A DNA stretch of 38,987 nt. Origin: an uncultured Clostridia bacterium (lineage in GTDB: Bacteria > Bacillota > Clostridia > Oscillospirales > Ruminococcaceae). Made by a program: the position numbers and the translations under genes. Every line of letters starts with the position of its first letter. The first letter of the stretch is position 1. The notes beneath the pieces were generated by a model. That model made no database searches and was not told where the DNA came from. It saw only the letters and a program-made list of their open reading frames with translations. Shown here piece by piece: positions 346 through 25,937 of this stretch. The stretch spans positions 1 through 38,987 of the forward strand of contig CANQOJ010000002.1 in NCBI GenBank assembly GCA_947625455.1, in the 5' to 3' direction.

Positions 346-481
346 TTTTAGAAGTAAGAGATTAGAGGTAAGAGGTAAGAGTTTGGGGGAAAGGTGGATT
401 GATGAACTTAGCCTTTTAGAAGTAAGAGATTAGAGGTTAGAGATAAGAGTTTGATAGAAAAGTTGTTTGATGAACTTAACC
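346..481. repeat. Heptamer-arm repeat element E1 (two tandem ~68-bp units)
   Basis: tttta-gaagtaagagattagaggtaagaggtaagagtttg...gatgaactta at 346-413, repeated imperfectly at 414-481; internal ~7-bp periodicity (agaggta/agaggtt). Confidence 0.8.
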
Positions 482-550
482 TGTTACCAACTTATATATT
501 TTACCACAAATCCCGTTGTTTGTCAAGAGTTATGGCTTTCATTTATGCAC

Positions 551-2427: not shown

Positions 2428-3822
2428 TTAAACCGACAGTTCTCTTCCCATCAGAACTCCCATGATCGAAGACATCATCAGCCCTCTTGTCCAGCCGCTC
2501 GAATCGCCTAAACAATGCAGTCCGCTTATGTTGGTGTTGAAGTGTTCGTCCATTTTAACGCGGTTTGAGTAAAATTTAAGTTCGGGTGAATACAAAAGCG
2601 TTTCCCTGCTTGCAAATCCCGGTACTACATCATCTACCGACTTGATGAAGTTTATAATGTTGGTCATTGTCCTATACGGCACTGCCGCAGTTATATCCCC
2701 CGCAACAGCATCGGGGAGCGTTGGTTTTACGTTTGAAAACGAAAGTTCTTTATCCCATGTCCGCTTTCCGTCAAGAATATCGCCGTAGCGCTGAACAAGG
2801 ATATGCCCCGCGCCAAGCATATTTGTGAGTTCTCCTACTTTTTTGGCGTATTCAATGGGCTGATTGAACGGCGTGCTGAAATTGTGCGAACAGAGGATAG
2901 CAAGGTTTGTGTTGTCGCTTTTCAGACCTTTAAACGAGTGACCGTTTACAACTGCAAGTCCGTTGTCGTAATTCTCCTGCGCGACAAAGCCTCCGGGATT
3001 TTGGCAGAATGTACGGACTTTGTTGCGAAAAGGCGCGGGATAACCTATAAGCTTGCTTTCATAGAGTACGTCGTTCACTTCCTCCATGATTTCACTGCGC
3101 ACCTCAACCCTTACGCCTATATCCACAGTGCCGGGGCTATGTTCTATATTATGTTCAACGCAAATCCTTTCAAGCCAGTCAGCGCCCTTGCGACCTGTTG
3201 CAATAACGGTGTGTTCTGCGTAAACAGTCTGTTCGGCGCCGTTTCTTTCGCATATAACCGCGCCTTTGCAGACTTTGTCCTCAATGATTATGTCCTTACA
3301 TTCGGTTTTGAACATTATGTCAACCCCGCTGTCGAGCAGGTGTTTTTCAATGCGCCGATAAAGTTCATGCGCCATTTCTGTGCCGAGATGACGAATAGGG
3401 CAGTCGACAAGTTTCAGATTTGCATTTATGGCTTTTTTGCGTATCGCGCGGATTTTTTCGGGATCTGAAATTCCCTCAACATGCGTATCCGCGCCAAATT
3501 CAAGGTAGATTTTATCGGTATACGCAATGGTTTCCTGCGCTTTTTGTTCGCCTATAAGTTCGGGCAACGTTCCCCCTACCTCGCAGGACAGCGACAATTT
3601 CCCGTCAGAAAACGCGCCCGCGCCCGAAAATCCCGTGGTTATATGGCAATACGGCTTGCAGTTCATGCATTTTCGCGTTTGCGATTTAGGACAGCTTCTG
3701 TTTTCAACAGCTTCGCCCTTTTCAACTATAAGTATCTTCTTCTTTGAATTGTTTCTGAGCATTTCAATTGCGGTGAAAATACCTGACGGACCTGCTCCGA
3801 TTATTAGAACATCATATTTCAT
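2428..3822 (-). CDS. NAD(P)/FAD-dependent oxidoreductase
   Basis: N-terminal MKYDVLIIGAGPSGIFTAIEM dinucleotide-binding motif; CHITTGFSGAGAFSDGKLSLS; C-terminal GLHCLGDSSGWTRGLMMSS. Confidence 0.88.
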   Translation of the reverse strand: MKYDVLIIGAGPSGIFTAIEMLRNNSKKKILIVEKGEAVENRSCPKSQTRKCMNCKPYCHITTGFSGAGAFSDGKLSLSCEVGGTLPELIGEQKAQETIAYTDKIYLEFGADTHVEGISDPEKIRAIRKKAINANLKLVDCPIRHLGTEMAHELYRRIEKHLLDSGVDIMFKTECKDIIIEDKVCKGAVICERNGAEQTVYAEHTVIATGRKGADWLERICVEHNIEHSPGTVDIGVRVEVRSEIMEEVNDVLYESKLIGYPAPFRNKVRTFCQNPGGFVAQENYDNGLAVVNGHSFKGLKSDNTNLAILCSHNFSTPFNQPIEYAKKVGELTNMLGAGHILVQRYGDILDGKRTWDKELSFSNVKPTLPDAVAGDITAAVPYRTMTNIINFIKSVDDVVPGFASRETLLYSPELKFYSNRVKMDEHFNTNISGLHCLGDSSGWTRGLMMSSIMGVLMGRELSV

Positions 3823-3834
3823 AACTTGCTCCTT

Positions 3835-3898
3835 TTAGATGTAAGAGGTTAGCGCATTATCCTCCTTCGTCGGATAACGCTGTAAGAGGTTAGAGTTG
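3835..3898. repeat. Heptamer repeat element E3 with 31-bp hairpin cassette
   Basis: gtaagaggttag occurs directly repeated at 3841-3852 and 3882-3893 around agcgcattatcctccttcgtcggataacgct (3851-3881). Confidence 0.8.
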
Positions 3899-5959: not shown

Positions 5960-6107
5960 AGAAGTTAGCAGTTATTTTGTTAGATTTTAGAGATTAGAAT
6001 TTAAGTGAAATCTTACTTTGTTCAGCAAATCTTGTTTCGACTTAACTCTAGCCTCTAGCCTCTCACAGCGTTATCCGACGAAGGAGGATAATGCGCTAGC
6101 CTCTAGA
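5958..6107. repeat. Heptamer-arm element E4 with 31-bp hairpin cassette (inverted relative to E3)
   Basis: Starts ctagaagttagcag...ttagagattagaat, ends ctctagcctctagcctctcac; agcgttatccgacgaaggaggataatgcgct at 6067-6097 is the exact reverse complement of 3851-3881; ends ctagcctctag. Confidence 0.85.
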
Positions 6108-6124
6108 AAGGACCACTTTGCGGA

Positions 6125-7435
6125 ATGAAGATACCTAAAAGAATAGCAAGCACGCTGATTAACGCTCTAAAAGGCGGTGTTGTACCGCGTGTAGGGCTTG
6201 GATATATAGCTGTCGGACGAACAAACGAGATAAACGCGCTTTTGCATGACGTGTCGATTGCAGAGGAGGGCGGGGCGTTTTTTCGGTTTGTGGTAGGAAA
6301 ATACGGTTCGGGAAAAAGCTTTCTTATGCAGATTATGCGCGCAAACGCTATGGACAGAGGATTTGCAACTGCTGACGCGGATTTATCGCCTGAGCGCAGG
6401 CTTATGGGCTCAAAAGGGCAAGGGCTTGCGACATACCGTGAACTTATGCGCTCACTTTCAGTAAAGGCAAAACCCGACGGAGGCGCGCTTCAGCTTATTC
6501 TCGAAAAGTGGATTGACGGCATAAGAAGCGAGGTTGTCGCTGACGGCACGCCAAGAGAAAACACGTTTTTTGATGCGGCGGTTGAAAAGAGGATTTACGC
6601 CAAAATCAATTTGCTTAAGGATATGGTACACGGGTTTGATTTTTCGGCGGTCGTTGCGGCGTATTACAAAGGCTTTGCAAACGGAAACGAAGAGTTGACG
6701 TCAAATGCCGTGAAATGGCTGCGCGGGGAGTTTACAACCAAAACAGAAGCGAAAGAAGCGCTGGGCGTAAACGTCATAATCACGGACGACAACTGGTATG
6801 ACTATATAAAACTGATGACGGCATTTCTTGTAAGCGCGGGATATAAAGGGCTTGTAATTATGATAGACGAGCTTGTGAACATAATGAAAATCCCGCACGC
6901 TGTCACACGTCAGTACAACTACGAGAAAATCCTTATGATGTACAATGACGTTATGCAGGGCAAAGCCTCGCATATAGGCATAATCATGGGCGGCACTCCG
7001 CAGTGCGTTGAGGATACGCGCAGAGGAATATTCAGCTATGAAGCGTTAAGGTCCAGGCTTGAACGCGGGAGATTTGCGACAGATGATGTTTACGATATGT
7101 TAGCGCCGATTATAAGGCTTGAACCGCTTTCTTATGAAGAACTTACGGTGCTTACGGAAAAGCTGTCGGAAATTCACGCAGTGCTGTACGAATACGAGCC
7201 GAAAATTACGCTTGAGGACAGGATATATTTCGTAAAGGCAGAATTTGAGCGCGTAGGCGCGCAGACGAATATCACCCCGCGCGAGATGATAAGGGATTAT
7301 ATTGAACTACTGAATATTGCATACCAAAATCCCGAAAAGTCATTTCCCGAACTTATGGGAGAAGAAAGTTTCAAATTTTCGGACGGCGACGGAGATAACT
7401 CAAACAATGACGGATTGGAGGATTTTGAACTATGA
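6125..7435 (+). CDS. BREX-type P-loop ATPase (BrxD/DUF2791-like)
   Basis: MKIPKRIASTLINALKGGVVPRVGLGYIAVGRTNEINALL; Walker A GKYGSGKS; Walker B-like GLVIMIDELVNI; overall resemblance to DUF2791/BrxD ATP-binding proteins. Confidence 0.8.
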   Translation: MKIPKRIASTLINALKGGVVPRVGLGYIAVGRTNEINALLHDVSIAEEGGAFFRFVVGKYGSGKSFLMQIMRANAMDRGFATADADLSPERRLMGSKGQGLATYRELMRSLSVKAKPDGGALQLILEKWIDGIRSEVVADGTPRENTFFDAAVEKRIYAKINLLKDMVHGFDFSAVVAAYYKGFANGNEELTSNAVKWLRGEFTTKTEAKEALGVNVIITDDNWYDYIKLMTAFLVSAGYKGLVIMIDELVNIMKIPHAVTRQYNYEKILMMYNDVMQGKASHIGIIMGGTPQCVEDTRRGIFSYEALRSRLERGRFATDDVYDMLAPIIRLEPLSYEELTVLTEKLSEIHAVLYEYEPKITLEDRIYFVKAEFERVGAQTNITPREMIRDYIELLNIAYQNPEKSFPELMGEESFKFSDGDGDNSNNDGLEDFEL

Positions 7436-9193: not shown

Positions 9194-10606
9194 ATGAGAA
9201 AGACAAAGATTATATGTACTATCGGTCCTGCAAGCGAAAGCGAGGAAATGATAAGGGAATTGTGCAATGCGGGAATGAACGTCGCAAGACTTAACTTTTC
9301 TCACGGCACACATGAACAGCACAAAATGAAAATAGACACGATAAAAAAGGTCAGAGAAGATTTAGGACTGCCGATAGCTGTAATGCTTGACACAAAAGGT
9401 CCCGAATACCGCATAGGAACGTTTGAAAATCACAAGATAACATTGAAAGACGGCGATACGTTTACCTTTACTTCGGACGAGTGCGTCGGCGACAATTCAA
9501 GAGTTTCGGTGAGTTACAAACAGCTTGCGCAGGAAGTGAATATCGGCGACACGATACTTGTAAACAACGGACTGCTTGTGTTTAATGTAAAGGAGATTTC
9601 GGGAAACAGCGTTGTGTGTGATGTTATAGCAGGCGGGGAGATGTCTGACAAAAAGAGCATGAACTTTCCGAATGTCGTATTAAAGGGCGATTTTTTAAGC
9701 GAACAGGACAAGAACGATATTCTTTTCGGAATTGAAAACGGCGTTGACTTTATAGCCGCGTCATTTGTTTCAACAAAAGATGATGTTCAGCAGCTGAGGA
9801 CATTCCTCAATGAAAACGGCGGTGAAGATATCGACATAATAGCAAAAATCGAAAACCGCTCTGGTGTTGACAACATTGAGGAGATTTGCGAGATTGCGGA
9901 CGGGATAATGGTAGCGCGAGGAGATTTGGGAGTTGAAATTCCGTTTGTTGAAGTGCCGTCAATACAGAAGTACCTCATCAAAAAGTGCAGGCTTCTCGGA
10001 AAGCGCGTCATAACCGCAACAGAAATGCTCGAAAGCATGATAGAAAAACCGCGCCCCACAAGAGCGGAGATTTCCGATGTGGCAAACGCAGTTTATGACG
10101 GCTCGTCAGCTATAATGCTGTCGGGAGAAACAGCGGCGGGAAAGTATCCTGTTTTGGCAGTGAAGAATATGGCAGAGATAGCGGAGTGTACGGAAAACAC
10201 CATTGACTACAAAAAGCGTTTCGCAACAACCGAATACGACATAAAGAACAACATTGACGCAGTTTCCCATGCTACCTGCGCTATGGCTATCGACACCAAG
10301 GCAAAGGGCATTGTCATCAGTTCGCTTTCGGGGAGGACGGTCAGAATGGTAAGCCGTTTCAGACCGCCTGTTGACATAATCGGAATGACAACTTCGGAAA
10401 AAGCGTGGAGAAAGCTGAATTTAAGCTGGGGAGTTACGCCTGTTTTAAGCGAGGAGTTCAACTCCGTTGACGTCATGTTCTATCACGCTTTACAGCACGC
10501 TAAGAAGTATTTCGGACTGACAGCGGGAGATAACGTAGTATTAACGGGCGGTCAGACAAGCGGGAAGTCGGGAAATACCAACACTATAAGACTGGAATCC
10601 GTCTAG
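9194..10606 (+). CDS. pyk: Pyruvate kinase
   Basis: MRKTKIICTIGPAS, ARLNFSHGTHEQH, MVARGDLGVEIP, ITATEMLESMIEKPRPTRAEISDVANAVYDG. Confidence 0.97.
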   Translation: MRKTKIICTIGPASESEEMIRELCNAGMNVARLNFSHGTHEQHKMKIDTIKKVREDLGLPIAVMLDTKGPEYRIGTFENHKITLKDGDTFTFTSDECVGDNSRVSVSYKQLAQEVNIGDTILVNNGLLVFNVKEISGNSVVCDVIAGGEMSDKKSMNFPNVVLKGDFLSEQDKNDILFGIENGVDFIAASFVSTKDDVQQLRTFLNENGGEDIDIIAKIENRSGVDNIEEICEIADGIMVARGDLGVEIPFVEVPSIQKYLIKKCRLLGKRVITATEMLESMIEKPRPTRAEISDVANAVYDGSSAIMLSGETAAGKYPVLAVKNMAEIAECTENTIDYKKRFATTEYDIKNNIDAVSHATCAMAIDTKAKGIVISSLSGRTVRMVSRFRPPVDIIGMTTSEKAWRKLNLSWGVTPVLSEEFNSVDVMFYHALQHAKKYFGLTAGDNVVLTGGQTSGKSGNTNTIRLESV

Positions 10607-10771
10607 AAGCTAGAGATTAAGAGGCTAGAGGCTAGATTTAAGGTTTGGATTTAGATTGTTTTTAAATTAAAGAGCGTAAACCTATCAAGGGGTTTACGCT
10701 CTGATAATATCGATACAATCTTAATCCAAACCTTATATCTAACATCTAGCTTCTTAATTTCTAGCTTCTAG
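10603..10771. repeat. Heptamer-arm inverted-repeat element E5 (CTAGAGG-type arms)
   Basis: Left ctagaagctagagattaagaggctagaggctagatttaaggtttggatttagattg, right caatcttaatccaaaccttatatctaacatctagcttcttaatttctagcttctag; core hairpin agagcgtaaacc (10671-10682)/ggtttacgctct (10691-10702). Confidence 0.92.
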
Positions 10772-11880: not shown

Positions 11881-11887
11881 CTTTTTG

Positions 11888-12067
11888 CAGTATACAATGG
11901 ACAGTGTACAGTAGACAGTAGAATGTGTCCGCTAACGCGGACATTATTTAGATTGTTTTTGGAGGAAAGAGCGTAAACCAACCGAGGGGTTTACGCTCAA
12001 ATAAACTCAAAACAATCTGAATAACACCTTAGGATCTAGCCTCTAGCTTCTTAAACTCTAGCTTCTT
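11888..12067. repeat. Chimeric heptamer-arm element E6 (ACAGTGG-type left arm, CTAGAGG-type right arm)
   Basis: Left cagtatacaatggacagtgtacagtagacagtag; inner hairpin gtccgctaacgcggac; core gattgttttt...gagcgtaaacc...ggtttacgctc...aaaacaatc; right atctagcctctagcttcttaaactctagcttctt. Confidence 0.88.
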
Positions 12068-12097
12068 GTAGAAAACCTTTTTCAAAAGGTTTTCTAC
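12068..12097. repeat. Perfect 14-bp hairpin, possible terminator between lysA and the chromate transporter region
   Basis: gtagaaaacctttt-tc-aaaaggttttctac, perfect inverted repeat. Confidence 0.75.
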
Positions 12098-13396: not shown

Positions 13397-14833
13397 TTAT
13401 GTGTTATCATCGCTGTCGGGCAAGGTTTCCTGCTCAATTTCAGCGAACATTTTCTTCATTGTGGGGTTTTTATATGTAAGCTTTTTTATCGTCAAATCAT
13501 CAGCTTTGTCATTGGCAAGGCGAAGATTATTTGCCGACGACAACAAGTTCTTTTTCACCTTGTTTAAATGGTCGATAGATTTGTCAATCTCCTCGATAGC
13601 AAGCTCAAACTGGTTACTTGCAAGCTGATAATTCTTTGAAAATCCGTCTTTAAATTCAAGAAGCTTTTTCTCGAAATTAGTAACGTCAATTTCCCTCTCG
13701 CTCATCTCCTTAAGCTTCTTGCGGTATTTGAGGCTTTCCCTCGCGGCGTTTCTGAGAAGCGTTATTATGGGAATGAAAAACTGCGGACGGATAACGTACA
13801 TCTTCGGATATCTGTACGACACGTCAACTATACCGTTGTTATAAAAGTCGTTGTCCGCTTCAAGCATTGAGACAAGCACGGCATATTCACAGTTTTTCTC
13901 GTTTCTGTCCTTGTCAAGTTCTTTGAAGAAATCCTCGTTTTTCTTCTTGGTTGCCGTATTGTCAGCTTCGTTTTTCATCTCAAACATTATTGAAATAAAT
14001 TCAACGTCATCTTCATAATCTCTGAAGATAAAATCGCCCTTGCTTCCCGATTTAGCGTCGTTGTCCTTTTCAAAATACGCATTCGGAAATCCCGTCATTC
14101 TGAAAGCATTGAACTGGTTCATGCAGTGCTGTTCAAGGCTTTCGCCTATCATTTTCGTTGACAGTTTCAGCTTAAAATCTTTATACTGTGCTATGCGCTC
14201 GTCCTTTTCTTTAAGCTGAAGTTCATAACTCTCTTTCATGTTCTTTTCGCTGATGATATATTCGTTTCTTATGCGTTCAATCTCGCCGTTTTTCTCGGAA
14301 ATCTCCTTTTCCTTTTCGGAAACGGCAGTTTCAATTTCAAGCTGTTTTTGCCTTGCCTCACCCTCAAGCTGTTGTTTTAATAGCGCAATTTCGCTGTCCT
14401 TTGACGCTATTTTCTTTTCGCTTTCGGTAACAGCGTCTTTTAATGCGCCTTGTTTTTCGTTTTCGGAAATTTGCAGTTTGTTTTCAAGGTCGGCTATTGT
14501 GCGCTGAAGCTCAAACAGCTTTTTTTCGCTTTCCCTTTCGCTTTCGGCAACAGCGTTTTTTAATGCGTCCTGTTTTCCGTTTTCGGAAATTTCAAGCTTG
14601 TTTTCAAGGTCGGCTATCGTGCTTTTGAGTTCAAACAACTGCTTGTCGCTTTCCATTTTGCTGTCAGCCAGCGCAAGTTTCACCGCTTGCTCTTTCTCGC
14701 TTTCAAGGCGCTGTTCACGGTCACGTATCTCCTTTTCAAACTCCTTGTCGCGGACTTGCTTTACAATTGCCGCATAACCCGATTCGTCAACTTGAAATAC
14801 CTCTCCGCACTTTGGGCATTTAATTTCCTGCAT
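13397..14833 (-). CDS. DUF2130 domain-containing coiled-coil protein
   Basis: CPKCGEVFQVDESGYAAIVKQVRDKEFEKEI N-terminus, long coiled coil, C-terminal GSKGDFIFRDYEDDVEFISIMFEMKNE. Confidence 0.88.
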   Translation of the reverse strand: MQEIKCPKCGEVFQVDESGYAAIVKQVRDKEFEKEIRDREQRLESEKEQAVKLALADSKMESDKQLFELKSTIADLENKLEISENGKQDALKNAVAESERESEKKLFELQRTIADLENKLQISENEKQGALKDAVTESEKKIASKDSEIALLKQQLEGEARQKQLEIETAVSEKEKEISEKNGEIERIRNEYIISEKNMKESYELQLKEKDERIAQYKDFKLKLSTKMIGESLEQHCMNQFNAFRMTGFPNAYFEKDNDAKSGSKGDFIFRDYEDDVEFISIMFEMKNEADNTATKKKNEDFFKELDKDRNEKNCEYAVLVSMLEADNDFYNNGIVDVSYRYPKMYVIRPQFFIPIITLLRNAARESLKYRKKLKEMSEREIDVTNFEKKLLEFKDGFSKNYQLASNQFELAIEEIDKSIDHLNKVKKNLLSSANNLRLANDKADDLTIKKLTYKNPTMKKMFAEIEQETLPDSDDNT

Positions 14834-15400: not shown

Positions 15401-15958
15401 TTAGTCAATCCCTTGTTTGCTTCTTCTGACTAATTCCTTGTATATCTCCTTGCCCATTTTATTGTATTCTTTGGCAAGTTTCGGCTGACCTAAGATTTTA
15501 TAGACCTTTGCAAGTTCCTCGCACCAGGTGACAGCACCGTGTTTGCGCTTTTTCTCCCAAGTGTCGCAATAGTCAATGCAAAACGTAAGGCAGTCTACAG
15601 CGTCCTGCAATATTTCGGGAGTGCGGTAGTTTTCTTTCGGGATAATCTCTTGAAGCGTTGTAATATAATCAAAGCGAATGTTATACGACTCCGGGCAGGT
15701 GTCAATAGCCTTGTGGTAATACGGAATACCGCGCTCTAAATCGTTTCCGAAAACAACAACCCAACAGCCGATATGGCAGTAAAACTTCGCTATCGTCTCG
15801 CGCGATTTGCCTTCGGGGTTGGGGTACTTAGCCACTAATGCTTCGCCGTCAGCTATAAACTCCGTCACCTCGTCAGCGGTTTCAAGGTCGCTGTTCCCAT
15901 ATTTTTTTCTAAACGCAACGATTTCCGCGTTCAATGCTTCAACATCATATTCCGCCAT
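15401..15958 (-). CDS. TPR-like hypothetical protein, paralog 3 of 3
   Basis: GCWVVVFGNDLERGIPYYHKAIDTCPESYNIRFDYITTLQEIIPKENYRTPEILQDAVDCLTFCI; similar to the next two ORFs. Confidence 0.82.
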   Translation of the reverse strand: MAEYDVEALNAEIVAFRKKYGNSDLETADEVTEFIADGEALVAKYPNPEGKSRETIAKFYCHIGCWVVVFGNDLERGIPYYHKAIDTCPESYNIRFDYITTLQEIIPKENYRTPEILQDAVDCLTFCIDYCDTWEKKRKHGAVTWCEELAKVYKILGQPKLAKEYNKMGKEIYKELVRRSKQGID

Positions 15959-15970
15959 TTTATGTTCCTT

Positions 15971-16591
15971 TCATCTGCCGCCAAATATTCTCTTAATAAA
16001 TGCTGATATACGCATGATAAATCTGATGAAGAAGTTGGGTTCATTTTCTTGTTCAGCAAGTTCTATCGCCATTTTCGCAGACATCTTTTCACATTCGCGG
16101 GCTTTTTCTTCCTGACCTGCAATATGGTAGACGTTTGCAAGGTCCATGTATCTAAGGTCAATGCTTCGTTTTCTCTTTAGCTCCAAAGTATCGCTTGCGT
16201 CTATGCAGAATGTAAGGCAGTCAATCGCGTCCTGCACAAGTTCGGGAGTTGAATATTTTTCATTCGGGATTATCTCCTCAAGAGTTGTGAAGTACTCAAA
16301 ATGAACATCATACGAATCGGGGCAAAGTTCAAGCGCTTTGTGATAATACGGTATGCCTTGTTCAAGGTCTTGCCCGAAAACCACCGTCCAGCATCCTATA
16401 TGCTGACAGAATTTCCCAAGCCGCTCGCGGGCTTCGCCCTCAGGATTTGGGTATTTTGAAAGAATTGCGTCAGCGTCCTCAAGATACCAACCGAGGAATT
16501 TTTCGTCTTCAAGCTCTCTGCCAACGGTTTTATACTTCTTACTAAAGCGGGCAAGCTCTGCGCTCAGGGCTTCAATATTGTTTTCGGTCAT
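15971..16591 (-). CDS. TPR-like hypothetical protein, paralog 2 of 3
   Basis: GCWTVVFGQDLEQGIPYYHKALELCPDSYDVHFEYFTTLEEIIPNEKYSTPELVQDAIDCLTFCI. Confidence 0.82.
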   Translation of the reverse strand: MTENNIEALSAELARFSKKYKTVGRELEDEKFLGWYLEDADAILSKYPNPEGEARERLGKFCQHIGCWTVVFGQDLEQGIPYYHKALELCPDSYDVHFEYFTTLEEIIPNEKYSTPELVQDAIDCLTFCIDASDTLELKRKRSIDLRYMDLANVYHIAGQEEKARECEKMSAKMAIELAEQENEPNFFIRFIMRISAFIKRIFGGR

Positions 16592-16603
16592 TTTATGTTC
16601 CTT

Positions 16604-17224
16604 TCATCTGTTATCGGTTTTCTTGAACAACGGCGAGAATATGCGCTTGAAAACATTTGGCTTCTTTGTAACGCCAAGTTCAAACGCGTATATTTCAAGT
16701 TCAGCTTTCTGCGCCTCTCTTCCGCAGCGACAGCCGTCTTCATGCTGCCCCGCTATGTCGTACACCCACGCCAGCTCCCACCAACGGCGGTCAATTTTAT
16801 ATTCCGCCTTAAGCGCGGGGGTATTGCAGTAGTTTATGCAGAATGTAAGGCAGTCAATTGCGTCCTGTATAAGTTCGGGCGTTGAATATTTCTTGTCGGG
16901 AATGATTTCCTTAAGCGTTGTGAAGTACTCAAAGTGAATATCCCACGAATCGGGACAGAGTTCAAGCGCCTTGTGATAATACGGTATGCCATGTTCAAGG
17001 TCGTTGCCGAAAACCACCGTCCAACAGCCTAAAAAATTGCAGAATTTCCCTAACTCCCCGCGGATTTCTCCCTCTGGATTTGGGTATTCGGCAACTATCG
17101 CGTCCGCGTCTGCAAGGTATTTACTGCGAATGTTATCATCTTTAAGCTTTTCGTCAATGTCTTTGTACTTCTCGTGAAACTCGGCAATTTCGGAGTTCAG
17201 AGTTTCAATGTTAATTTCGGGCAT
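16604..17224 (-). CDS. TPR-like hypothetical protein, paralog 1 of 3
   Basis: GCWTVVFGNDLEHGIPYYHKALELCPDSWDIHFEYFTTLKEIIPDKKYSTPELIQDAIDCLTFCI. Confidence 0.82.
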   Translation of the reverse strand: MPEINIETLNSEIAEFHEKYKDIDEKLKDDNIRSKYLADADAIVAEYPNPEGEIRGELGKFCNFLGCWTVVFGNDLEHGIPYYHKALELCPDSWDIHFEYFTTLKEIIPDKKYSTPELIQDAIDCLTFCINYCNTPALKAEYKIDRRWWELAWVYDIAGQHEDGCRCGREAQKAELEIYAFELGVTKKPNVFKRIFSPLFKKTDNR

Positions 17225-23160: not shown

Positions 23161-23166
23161 TACTTA

Positions 23167-23327
23167 CTAGAAGTTAGAGATTAAGAGGCTAGAGGCTAGA
23201 TAAAGGTAGAATTTATCAGATTGTTTTTAAATTAAAACAGCGTAGACCACCAATTGGTCTACGCTGTTTGGGTTTAAAACAATCTGAATAATTCCTTATA
23301 ATCTAGCCTCTTAATCTCTAGTCTCTA
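23167..23327. repeat. Heptamer-arm inverted-repeat element E7 (CTAGAGG-type arms)
   Basis: Left ctagaagttagagattaagaggctagaggctaga; core cagattgttttt...aaacagcgtagacc (23235-23248)...ggtctacgctgttt (23256-23269)...aaaacaatctg; right atctagcctcttaatctctagtctctag. Confidence 0.92.
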
Positions 23328-23900
23328 GTTTTTAGCCATTAGCTCTTTTCCTGCATTCCATGCTTTTCCGACTTGTTCGCCCGAAATATAATAGCCGTTT
23401 TGGAACTGGTCGAAAATAAGCGCGTTAAGTTTGCCAGCGTCAATCTTACCGTTTTCGGAAAGCACGGTTTCTTCCGCCGCGGTATTTACTATCTTGCCGA
23501 CAATGCAGTACATGCTCTCCGTTTTAACAACTTCCGCAAGTTCGCACTCCATAACCACAGGAAATTCCTCGATAACAGGCGCGTCAACAAATCCGCTCTT
23601 AACCGCCTTACAGCCCGACTTTTCAAACTTGTCGGGCATTGTGTTTCCGCTCGCTATGCCAAAAAAGTCAGCGGGTTTTATATGCTCTTTGTCGGCAAGG
23701 CTTACGGTAAACGCTTTGCGTTTAAGCAAATTCTGCGTTGTCTTATGGTCCTCGTCAATGAACAGCGCGATTTTATCCATGGCGCATATCATGCCCCATG
23801 CGGCGTTCATAACGTTTACCTTGTCGTTTTCTCCGTATGCCGCAACCATAAGCACGGGCATAGGATAAACTGCGGGTATTGCTCCTAAATTCTTCTTCAT
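23325..23900 (-). CDS. Flavin reductase family protein
   Basis: YPMPVLMVAAYGENDKVNVMNAAWGMICAMDKIALFIDEDHKTTQNLLKRKAFTVSLAD. Confidence 0.88.
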   Translation of the reverse strand: MKKNLGAIPAVYPMPVLMVAAYGENDKVNVMNAAWGMICAMDKIALFIDEDHKTTQNLLKRKAFTVSLADKEHIKPADFFGIASGNTMPDKFEKSGCKAVKSGFVDAPVIEEFPVVMECELAEVVKTESMYCIVGKIVNTAAEETVLSENGKIDAGKLNALIFDQFQNGYYISGEQVGKAWNAGKELMAKN

Positions 23901-24722: not shown

Positions 24723-25937
24723 TTATTGTTCAATAGCCGCAAAATAATCACGGTACTCGGCATATTTTGCCTTGTGATTTTGCGCAAGCGCTTTAGGGCT
24801 TATATCGAAATATTTAACGCCCGCTTTGCCGCTTTCATATTTGCCGTTGCTGTAGCGGTAACAATAGCTGTTCCAACCCGAATCCACCCATATAACGCGC
24901 CCGTCTATAACCGCGTAATTCCACTCGTGATATTCAGCTTGCCTTTCGTCGAATGTCATGCTGTTGTTTACGGCGCTTCCGTGAACATTGCAGACCTTTA
25001 TTCCCTGCACCGCCGCCAAAGCAGAGGTCATATTTGAATATCCTCCGCATACGCTTGACGAATTATTAAGCATGTATTCAAGCGTCAGCGTCTCGGCGGG
25101 TACGCCGTCGTCAAATGCTTTAAAGTCATAATAAATGTTTTCCGACACCCACCGAGAAATTGCCCTAAGTTTATCGTAGTCGCTTGAAATGCCGTCGCAT
25201 ATTTTGTTGCTTATCTCGGTTATCTTCGCCATAACCTCTTTCAGCTTTTCCTTGTCGGCATTTACCGCTATATATTCCGCAACTTGATTAAGCGGTTGGT
25301 CTAACGTTTTTTCAACCGCTTTTGTATTTTCCTGTTCAACATCAGTACATTCAACAAACCTTATCTGCCCTTTTTCCGCGTATACTCTTACGCTTCCGCT
25401 CCAGCAGATTTGAACGCTTCCGTATCCCGTGAACAACTGATTTACCTTTGCGGTATAGGTAAATCTTCCGTTTTTGCGCGTGATTGTATGGCTTACGGAA
25501 AATGAACAGGACGGCTGAAAACCGCCCTCTGTTGTTCCCGTTACGGTTATTTCATTTCCGTTTATCGTCACCGTTTTTTCGTTCAGCGGATCAAGTATTA
25601 TCTTATATACGCTGTTTTCATTTTGAGTTGATGAACTTCCCTGTTGTGAACTTTGAGTTGATGAACTCGCGGTTGAGGAACTTTTAACTGATGAACTCGC
25701 GGTTGAGGAACTTTGAGCTGATGAACTCGCGGTTGACGAACTTTGAACTGATGAACTCTCGGTTGATGTACTTTCAATTGACGAACTCTCAACTGATGAA
25801 CTCTCGGTTGATGAACTTTGACTCAATTCATCATAATTACTGAAGCTGAATTTCGGCGGTTCAATTTCGGAAGAATTGTCACAGCCCGAAATCACAAATA
25901 TTGCCATTACAACAGCCAACAGCCGTTTCTTATGCAT
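24723..25937 (-). CDS. Transglutaminase-like lipoprotein with serine-rich repeat linker
   Basis: Lipobox FVISGC; (SSSTE/SSVES)n linker; SDYDKLRAISRWVSENIYYD, SVCGGYSNMTSALAAVQGIKVCNVHG, HEWNYAVIDGRVIWVDSGW Cys-His-Asp triad. Confidence 0.88.
   Translation of the reverse strand: MHKKRLLAVVMAIFVISGCDNSSEIEPPKFSFSNYDELSQSSSTESSSVESSSIESTSTESSSVQSSSTASSSAQSSSTASSSVKSSSTASSSTQSSQQGSSSTQNENSVYKIILDPLNEKTVTINGNEITVTGTTEGGFQPSCSFSVSHTITRKNGRFTYTAKVNQLFTGYGSVQICWSGSVRVYAEKGQIRFVECTDVEQENTKAVEKTLDQPLNQVAEYIAVNADKEKLKEVMAKITEISNKICDGISSDYDKLRAISRWVSENIYYDFKAFDDGVPAETLTLEYMLNNSSSVCGGYSNMTSALAAVQGIKVCNVHGSAVNNSMTFDERQAEYHEWNYAVIDGRVIWVDSGWNSYCYRYSNGKYESGKAGVKYFDISPKALAQNHKAKYAEYRDYFAAIEQ
25628..25822. 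repeat. In-frame serine-rich coding tandem repeat (15/30-bp units)
   Basis: Repeated ctttgagttgatgaactcgcggttgaggaa units encoding SSSTASSSxQ. Confidence 0.85.

Follow-up and report, generated by a model that had tools for sequence, protein, structure and literature searches.

A family of short hairpin cassettes, probably mobile, in the repeat DNA of a genus of gut Clostridia

Introduction

Among the small dispersed repeats of bacteria, the closest described counterparts of the element analysed here are the SDRs of Nostoc and its relatives, which are reportedly hairpins of 20–30 nt with compensatory changes. These repeats are said to be embedded in heptamer arrays and minitransposons and nested in themselves, with their mobility reportedly deduced, and an RNA intermediate is said to have been proposed for them. 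Passages in papers citing Elhai et al. 2008 (PMC2527708) confirm the existence and size class of SDRs (PMC4390886, PMC2884548, PMC3733652, PMC3116915), and one of these passages places the insertion of SDR5 between nucleotides 3 and 4 of HIP1 (PMC4390886). How elements of ~25 nt spread with neither coding capacity nor a recognised transposase has been a question since the cyanobacterial SDRs. The hairpin cassette described here belongs to a large family that has spread within a genus of gut Clostridia. This family provides a second case, this time in gut bacteria and apparently not related to the first. The cassette was found in a stretch of 38,987 nt (the window), contig 2 of a MAG of 2.3 Mb in 269 contigs that is 93% complete (G000, the source genome).

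Copies of the cassette in the window

An earlier note on this DNA had described a 31-bp hairpin cassette, AGCGCATTATCCTCCTTCGTCGGATAACGCT on the + strand at 3851–3881, with an exact inverted counterpart at 6067–6097. The inverted pair is exact. Even when up to 3 mismatches are allowed, the window holds no third copy of the 31-mer, and 100 dinucleotide shuffles gave none. The recurring unit is likewise real; its extent needed correction. Since the bases ahead of other copies are variously GGA, TGCA, TTGAC and the like, not AG, the conserved unit is the 29 nt listed in Table 1, with no constant AG before it. Inverted similarity between the two window copies reaches 52 nt at 94%, because both occupy related heptamer arrays.

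The note had also pointed to a 12-bp direct repeat, GTAAGAGGTTAG, which does bracket copy 1 (3841–3852 and 3882–3893) and shares 2 nt with the 31-mer. This repeat equals a 14-nt heptamer dimer (GTAAGAG GTTAGAG) less AG, the 2 nt that were swapped for the cassette. It is therefore array background, and its reading as a target duplication was rejected; that direct repeats beside the cassette might come from the background heptamer periodicity, as the note had allowed, was borne out.

Copy 1 lies ~30 bp upstream of the start of an FAD-dependent oxidoreductase gene, and copy 2 ~30 bp upstream of the start of the BrxC/D gene directly downstream of it. In the window at 6067–6110 (+), the cassette reads AAGGAGGATAATGCGCTAG, with a Shine-Dalgarno-like motif and ATG CGC TAG just before the real start; copy 1 is arranged likewise ahead of its gene, with ATG CGC TAA.

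Table 1. Coordinates of the cassettes, their flanking arrays, neighbouring genes and related features (window positions unless a genome or locus is named)
Feature	Position	Strand	Remarks
Hairpin cassette copy 1, CGCATTATCCTCCTTCGTCGGATAACGCT, 29 nt	3853..3881	+	Ends from comparison of ~95 contexts
Hairpin cassette copy 2, 29-nt sequence identical to copy 1	6067..6095	-	
Heptamer array, left part, TTAGATGTAAGAGGTTAG, split by copy 1	3835..3852	+	Empty TTAG-AG-GTAAGAG arrays in source genome
Heptamer array of copy 1, right part, GTAAGAGGTTAGAG	3882..3895	+	
Heptamer array, CTAGAGG type, one flank of copy 2	6046..6066	-	
Heptamer array, other flank of copy 2, CTAGAGGCTAG on - strand	6096..6106	-	
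FAD-dependent oxidoreductase gene	2428..3822	-	Context only, outside element
BREX-type ATPase BrxC/D gene	6125..7435	+	PF10923, E = 8e-163; context only, outside element
Y1 gene copies with cassette	G037 C10:1215-1598, C15, C16; G042 C7:530-913 (L171, L172)		
Host B examples	L193, L175, L210 and others, e.g. L013 ~404-510		

Structure of the repeat unit

Across the source genome and its relatives, the recurring unit is C-GCATTAT-[stem-loop]-stem'-(A/T)AAACGC-T. The base 5' of GCATT is nearly always C and the base 3' of AACGC nearly always T, and the flanks beyond differ. Family members range in size from 22 to 31 nt. Their ends are constant, CGCATTAT...AAAACGCT, and the stem between them, which spans at least 2 to 5 bp, is variable yet self-complementary.

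Pairing was examined in 26 distinct members of 27 nt, in which 97.9% of cells were paired as compared with 88.1% after shuffling. Five of the nine pairs carried changes on both sides, and sliding the partner abolished the signal. None of 500 shuffles reached the observed value for any of three measures (paired percentage, covariation score, count of pair types), and two of 500 did so for the number of pairs changed on both sides. Such two-sided changes show that the hairpin forms or matters; they do not imply an RNA intermediate, because palindrome correction during replication could also yield them. The ends retain an A-C mismatch, which is G-U on the opposite strand, and the strand reading AGCG..TGCG folds best as RNA.

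Copy number and range

The pattern GCATTATN{7,18}AACGCT has 109 matches in the source genome, against 0 for a reversed-pattern control. The window copies carry the CCTCC variant, whose 27-nt core is found without mismatch at 11 places with several unrelated kinds of flank. Most of the 43 species of the genus (42 besides the source genome) have copies above the control, the genomes G016, G018, G031, G029 and G033 holding 75, 73, 56, 48 and 47, respectively; one of the 43, G009, has no copies. A 22-nt form, with stem changes of its own (e.g. GC/GC to AC/GT), occurs in a single genome from a different genus of the family. Apart from this form, the genomes outside the genus, in a sample of 394 from the order, show no more than two matches apiece, and none of those listed is a hairpin. 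A scan of contigs yielded at least 80 stretches, and it is the order and family samples that speak, in part, for absence elsewhere; among the matches listed, the records that bear names are MAGs of gut-type Clostridia under the labels Oscillospiraceae, uncultured Clostridia or Ruminococcus sp. Viral contigs contain no exact match to the cassette pattern.

Location of copies

The location of copies was surveyed in a 711-kb sample of the source genome. Although ORFs of at least 80 aa span 90% of the bases in this sample, 43 of the 48 copies lie outside them. Of the copies with full flanks, 45 in all, 44 lie in older repeats. Heptamer arrays account for 18 of them, 8 assigned by a strict lag-7 test and 10 by eye; host B, a 105-bp palindromic mini-element, accounts for 23 and the loops of small hairpins for 3. 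The remaining copy lies elsewhere. By strict definitions, arrays make up ~0.4% and host B ~0.7% of the sample. There is no excess of copies near gene starts or ends in the sample, and no gene-orientation or strand bias: the orientation counts (8 for -+, 7 for +-, 12 for ++ and 9 for --) are roughly as the available bases, and the strands are represented 10 to 11.

Cassettes are also nested in other cassettes. At ~1430–1600 of locus L030 (- strand), several of them form a deep stack, one within another; this stack is a palindrome that has grown as copies inserted repeatedly into its tip. The window itself contains composite palindromic elements (2220–2404, 11886–12071, 10603–10771 and 23165–23331) whose arms are heptamer arrays of the ACAGTGG or CTAGAGG type and whose centre is a TAGATTGTTTT..AAAACAATCTA hairpin with an inner AGAGCGTAAACC..GGTTTACGCTCT stem. 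These form a second multi-copy mini-element family and are a main cassette target. Other repeats in the window are three copies spaced ~630 bp apart at 15479–17038, which are probable tandem paralogues, a 120-bp tandem duplication at 14410–14662 and a 15/30-bp tandem repeat at 25597–25821.

Host B, CAGACTGTAGAGAAAG..CTTTATCTACAGTCTG, has 39 anchored matches in the 711-kb sample (both strands counted), and it occurs empty, at 105 bp, or filled, carrying between one and three cassettes at several positions. In G040 (L261), host B is present with a cassette on board; the sister species G031 (L255) has a clean empty site with flanks 95–98% identical. From this comparison, host B appears to be mobile too, between the two species, and some cassettes ride as passengers when it moves. 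Some shared cassette positions may accordingly reflect transposition of a host element already bearing its cassette. At host B site 2, two genomes that are 90% identical differ, and at site 3 they have different stems.

Empty and filled sites

Paralogous sites in filled and empty form were counted for several targets: 7 filled and 54 empty for the TTAG-AG-GTAAGAG type, 11 and 52 for the ACAGT array (NA before GT), 3 and 20 for GGTATCCG-CT-..CGCGGAT, and 12 and 24 for host B site 1, the empty-site patterns fixing the gap at 2 (or 3) nt. At most site types, exactly two bases (AG, CA, AA, GA or CT) are replaced, without target duplication. The middle dinucleotide is swapped for the cassette at GATGC(A/T)-AG-GAAGC, TTAG-AG-GTAAGAG, (A/G)(A/G)TG(G/T)A-(C/A)A-GT.., CTAGA-GA-TTAAGAG and GGTATCCG-CT-..CGCGGAT. 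Exceptions to this rule are host B site 2, which loses three bases (GCA), and nested sites, which seem to lose 4–5 nt.

Orthologous comparisons were between species that are ~75–98% identical locally. The pair GTA-CA-GTG is filled in G037 and empty in the source genome, where the array retains CA. The interval of copy 1 has no cassette in G041, G034 and G013, and in G031 it holds other repeats with other cassettes. At the locus of copy 2, G037 has an array without a cassette and G040 an array with a cassette of a different stem. An IS200-type Y1_Tnp gene in G037 and G042 is interrupted by a cassette: compared with five homologues the gene is 27 nt longer (29 minus 2), and the insert carries an in-frame stop, TAA. 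G037 has the cassette-bearing gene at three places, as though it had been copied in trans once the cassette was in place.

Mechanism of spread

On the strength of these sequence comparisons, the cassette is probably a non-autonomous mobile mini-hairpin of 22–31 nt that is copied and inserted via a trans-acting activity. Mobility of the unit is the only reading found that accounts for the nesting, the insertion in a gene and the empty sites as well as for constant ends between unrelated flanks. The suggestion in the earlier note of a very small element inserted in heptamer repeats thus gained a genome-wide family, empty sites both paralogous and orthologous, nesting and insertion in an IS gene; the check proposed there, for other copies and for empty sites, turned up many of both. 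Its other suggestion, a cassette moved by slippage or recombination, is not supported, since the contexts are unrelated and without flank homology, the ends are constant and 2 nt are replaced. Spread could proceed by copy-and-insert via a single-stranded hairpin form (RNA or ssDNA), the constant ends being recognised by an activity supplied in trans, and insertion would occur where the target tends to be single-stranded. That the targets are rich in palindromes and repeats and lose a few bases points to insertion into DNA that is single-stranded or looped, which an unrecognised enzyme or template switching might bring about.

Several alternatives were considered. Movement of a REP/REPIN-type hairpin by RAYT or another Y1 (HUH) transposase would agree with a short imperfect hairpin with conserved mismatches, since Y1 enzymes work on single-stranded hairpins, and Y1_Tnp matches occur in nine genomes of the genus. 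However, no GTAG or CGTC tag, the marks of REPs (PMC3733652), lies beside the cassette, whose ends are CGCATTAT/AAAACGCT, and cassettes are not arranged as inverted doublets. The transposase (PF01797) has no match in the source genome or in most copy-rich relatives (G016, G018, G031, G033, G034, G040 and G041), all of them MAGs, which can miss genes; G010 and G006 have Y1 but few copies, and the cassette of G037 and G042 lies within a Y1 gene, with its in-frame stop. This origin was rejected for want of a Y1 enzyme in the source genome, and we regard it as very unlikely. Retro-insertion, in which an RNA hairpin is copied into DNA by a reverse transcriptase, is unlikely too. The covariation and the G-U at the A-C position on one strand fit RNA, target duplication is lacking, and an RNA intermediate is said to have once been proposed for the cyanobacterial SDRs. 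Against this, nine copy-rich genomes (G000, G016, G018, G031, G033, G034, G039, G040 and G041; MAGs, which can miss genes) have no match to RVT_1, and several low-copy genomes have one. Judged by eye, the stem wobbles are roughly even between strands. A variant of this route may use a borrowed or unrecognised reverse transcriptase. Template switching at the DNA level, by the replication machinery acting on hairpin-prone repeats, would dispense with a dedicated enzyme; it could explain targets prone to hairpins or slippage, the 2–5 nt lost at the insertion point and the nesting, and quasipalindrome correction alone could give the two-sided stem changes. We consider it improbable, given that the ends are constant across many sites though the targets do not share them and that the usual loss is exactly 2 nt; constant ends and an exact 2-nt loss suggest a recognised unit.

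That the cassette is a regulatory or terminator hairpin held in place by selection was suggested by the position of both window copies, ~30 bp upstream of a start codon, where the - strand of the cassette reads GGAGGATAATG. The survey of the 711-kb sample, which gave neither an excess near gene ends nor an orientation bias, makes this highly improbable, as do the high turnover between species, the presence of copies within other repeats, one another and an IS gene, and the Rfam 15 covariance models, none of which matches a cassette even when E is allowed to reach 1. It is extremely unlikely that the cassette is an internal segment of a larger heptamer-ended mini-transposon and not its own unit. 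Many copies do sit at recurrent positions of such mini-transposons, but identical ends recur where the cassette lies within host B, hairpin loops, the Y1 gene or another copy of itself, most of these sites with an empty counterpart, and for the family as a whole this reading is already refuted.

Significance

Whether these cassettes make up a class of mobile hairpin independent of REP/RAYT and MITEs, with constant ends, a free stem, exchange of a dinucleotide for a hairpin and a preference for repeat DNA, is evenly balanced. If they do, elements of this kind had at least two origins, one in cyanobacteria and one in Clostridia, and lie near the lower size limit of mobile DNA. The end sequence, the host group and the two-base replacement are apparently new; a limited literature search found nothing relevant on such repeats in Oscillospira-type bacteria. 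The ~43 species, the precisely placed insertions, the abundance of empty sites and the two-base rule make mechanisms comparable, and the family illustrates how palindromes nested in one another and intergenic regions rich in repeats can expand.

Comparison with known systems

REP/REPIN elements with RAYT (PMC3116915, PMC3733652) are, like the cassette, short, dispersed and mostly intergenic palindromes, whereas the cassette has no GTAG/CGTC tag, occurs as single units and has no Y1 transposase found in the source genome. The bacterial MITEs RUP, NEMIS and ERIC (PMC3733652) are also non-coding, dispersed and foldable. They measure 70–300 nt, in contrast to 22–31 nt for the cassette, and where MITEs are defined by a TIR of at least 15 bp (15–30 bp) and a target-site duplication, the cassette has imperfect 7-bp ends and replaces 2–3 nt. 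The RVT_1 that would mark a group II intron or other RVT_1-borne element gave no match in the source genome or in most copy-rich relatives. The mobile GC clusters of yeast mitochondria (PMC4478555) share the tiny hairpin and an AG dinucleotide at the target; they are organellar and flanked by duplicated AG, whereas in the cassette AG is replaced. Tiny hairpin elements also occur in the mtDNA of Allomyces and sponges (PMC2800124), those of Allomyces again without flanking duplication, but these too are organellar.

The likeness to SDRs extends further. Both are dispersed repeats of similar size (~21–27 nt in SDRs), the cassette hairpin is likewise backed by compensatory changes, and it likewise lies in heptamer arrays and minitransposons and is nested in itself. 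SDRs belong to a subgroup of cyanobacteria and the cassette family to a genus of Oscillospiraceae-type Clostridia; compared with SDR1–8 by description, the cassette differs in its CGCATTAT/AAAACGCT ends and its replacement of two target bases. By analogy, the cassette appears to work like an SDR, and it is not filed here among the SDR families.
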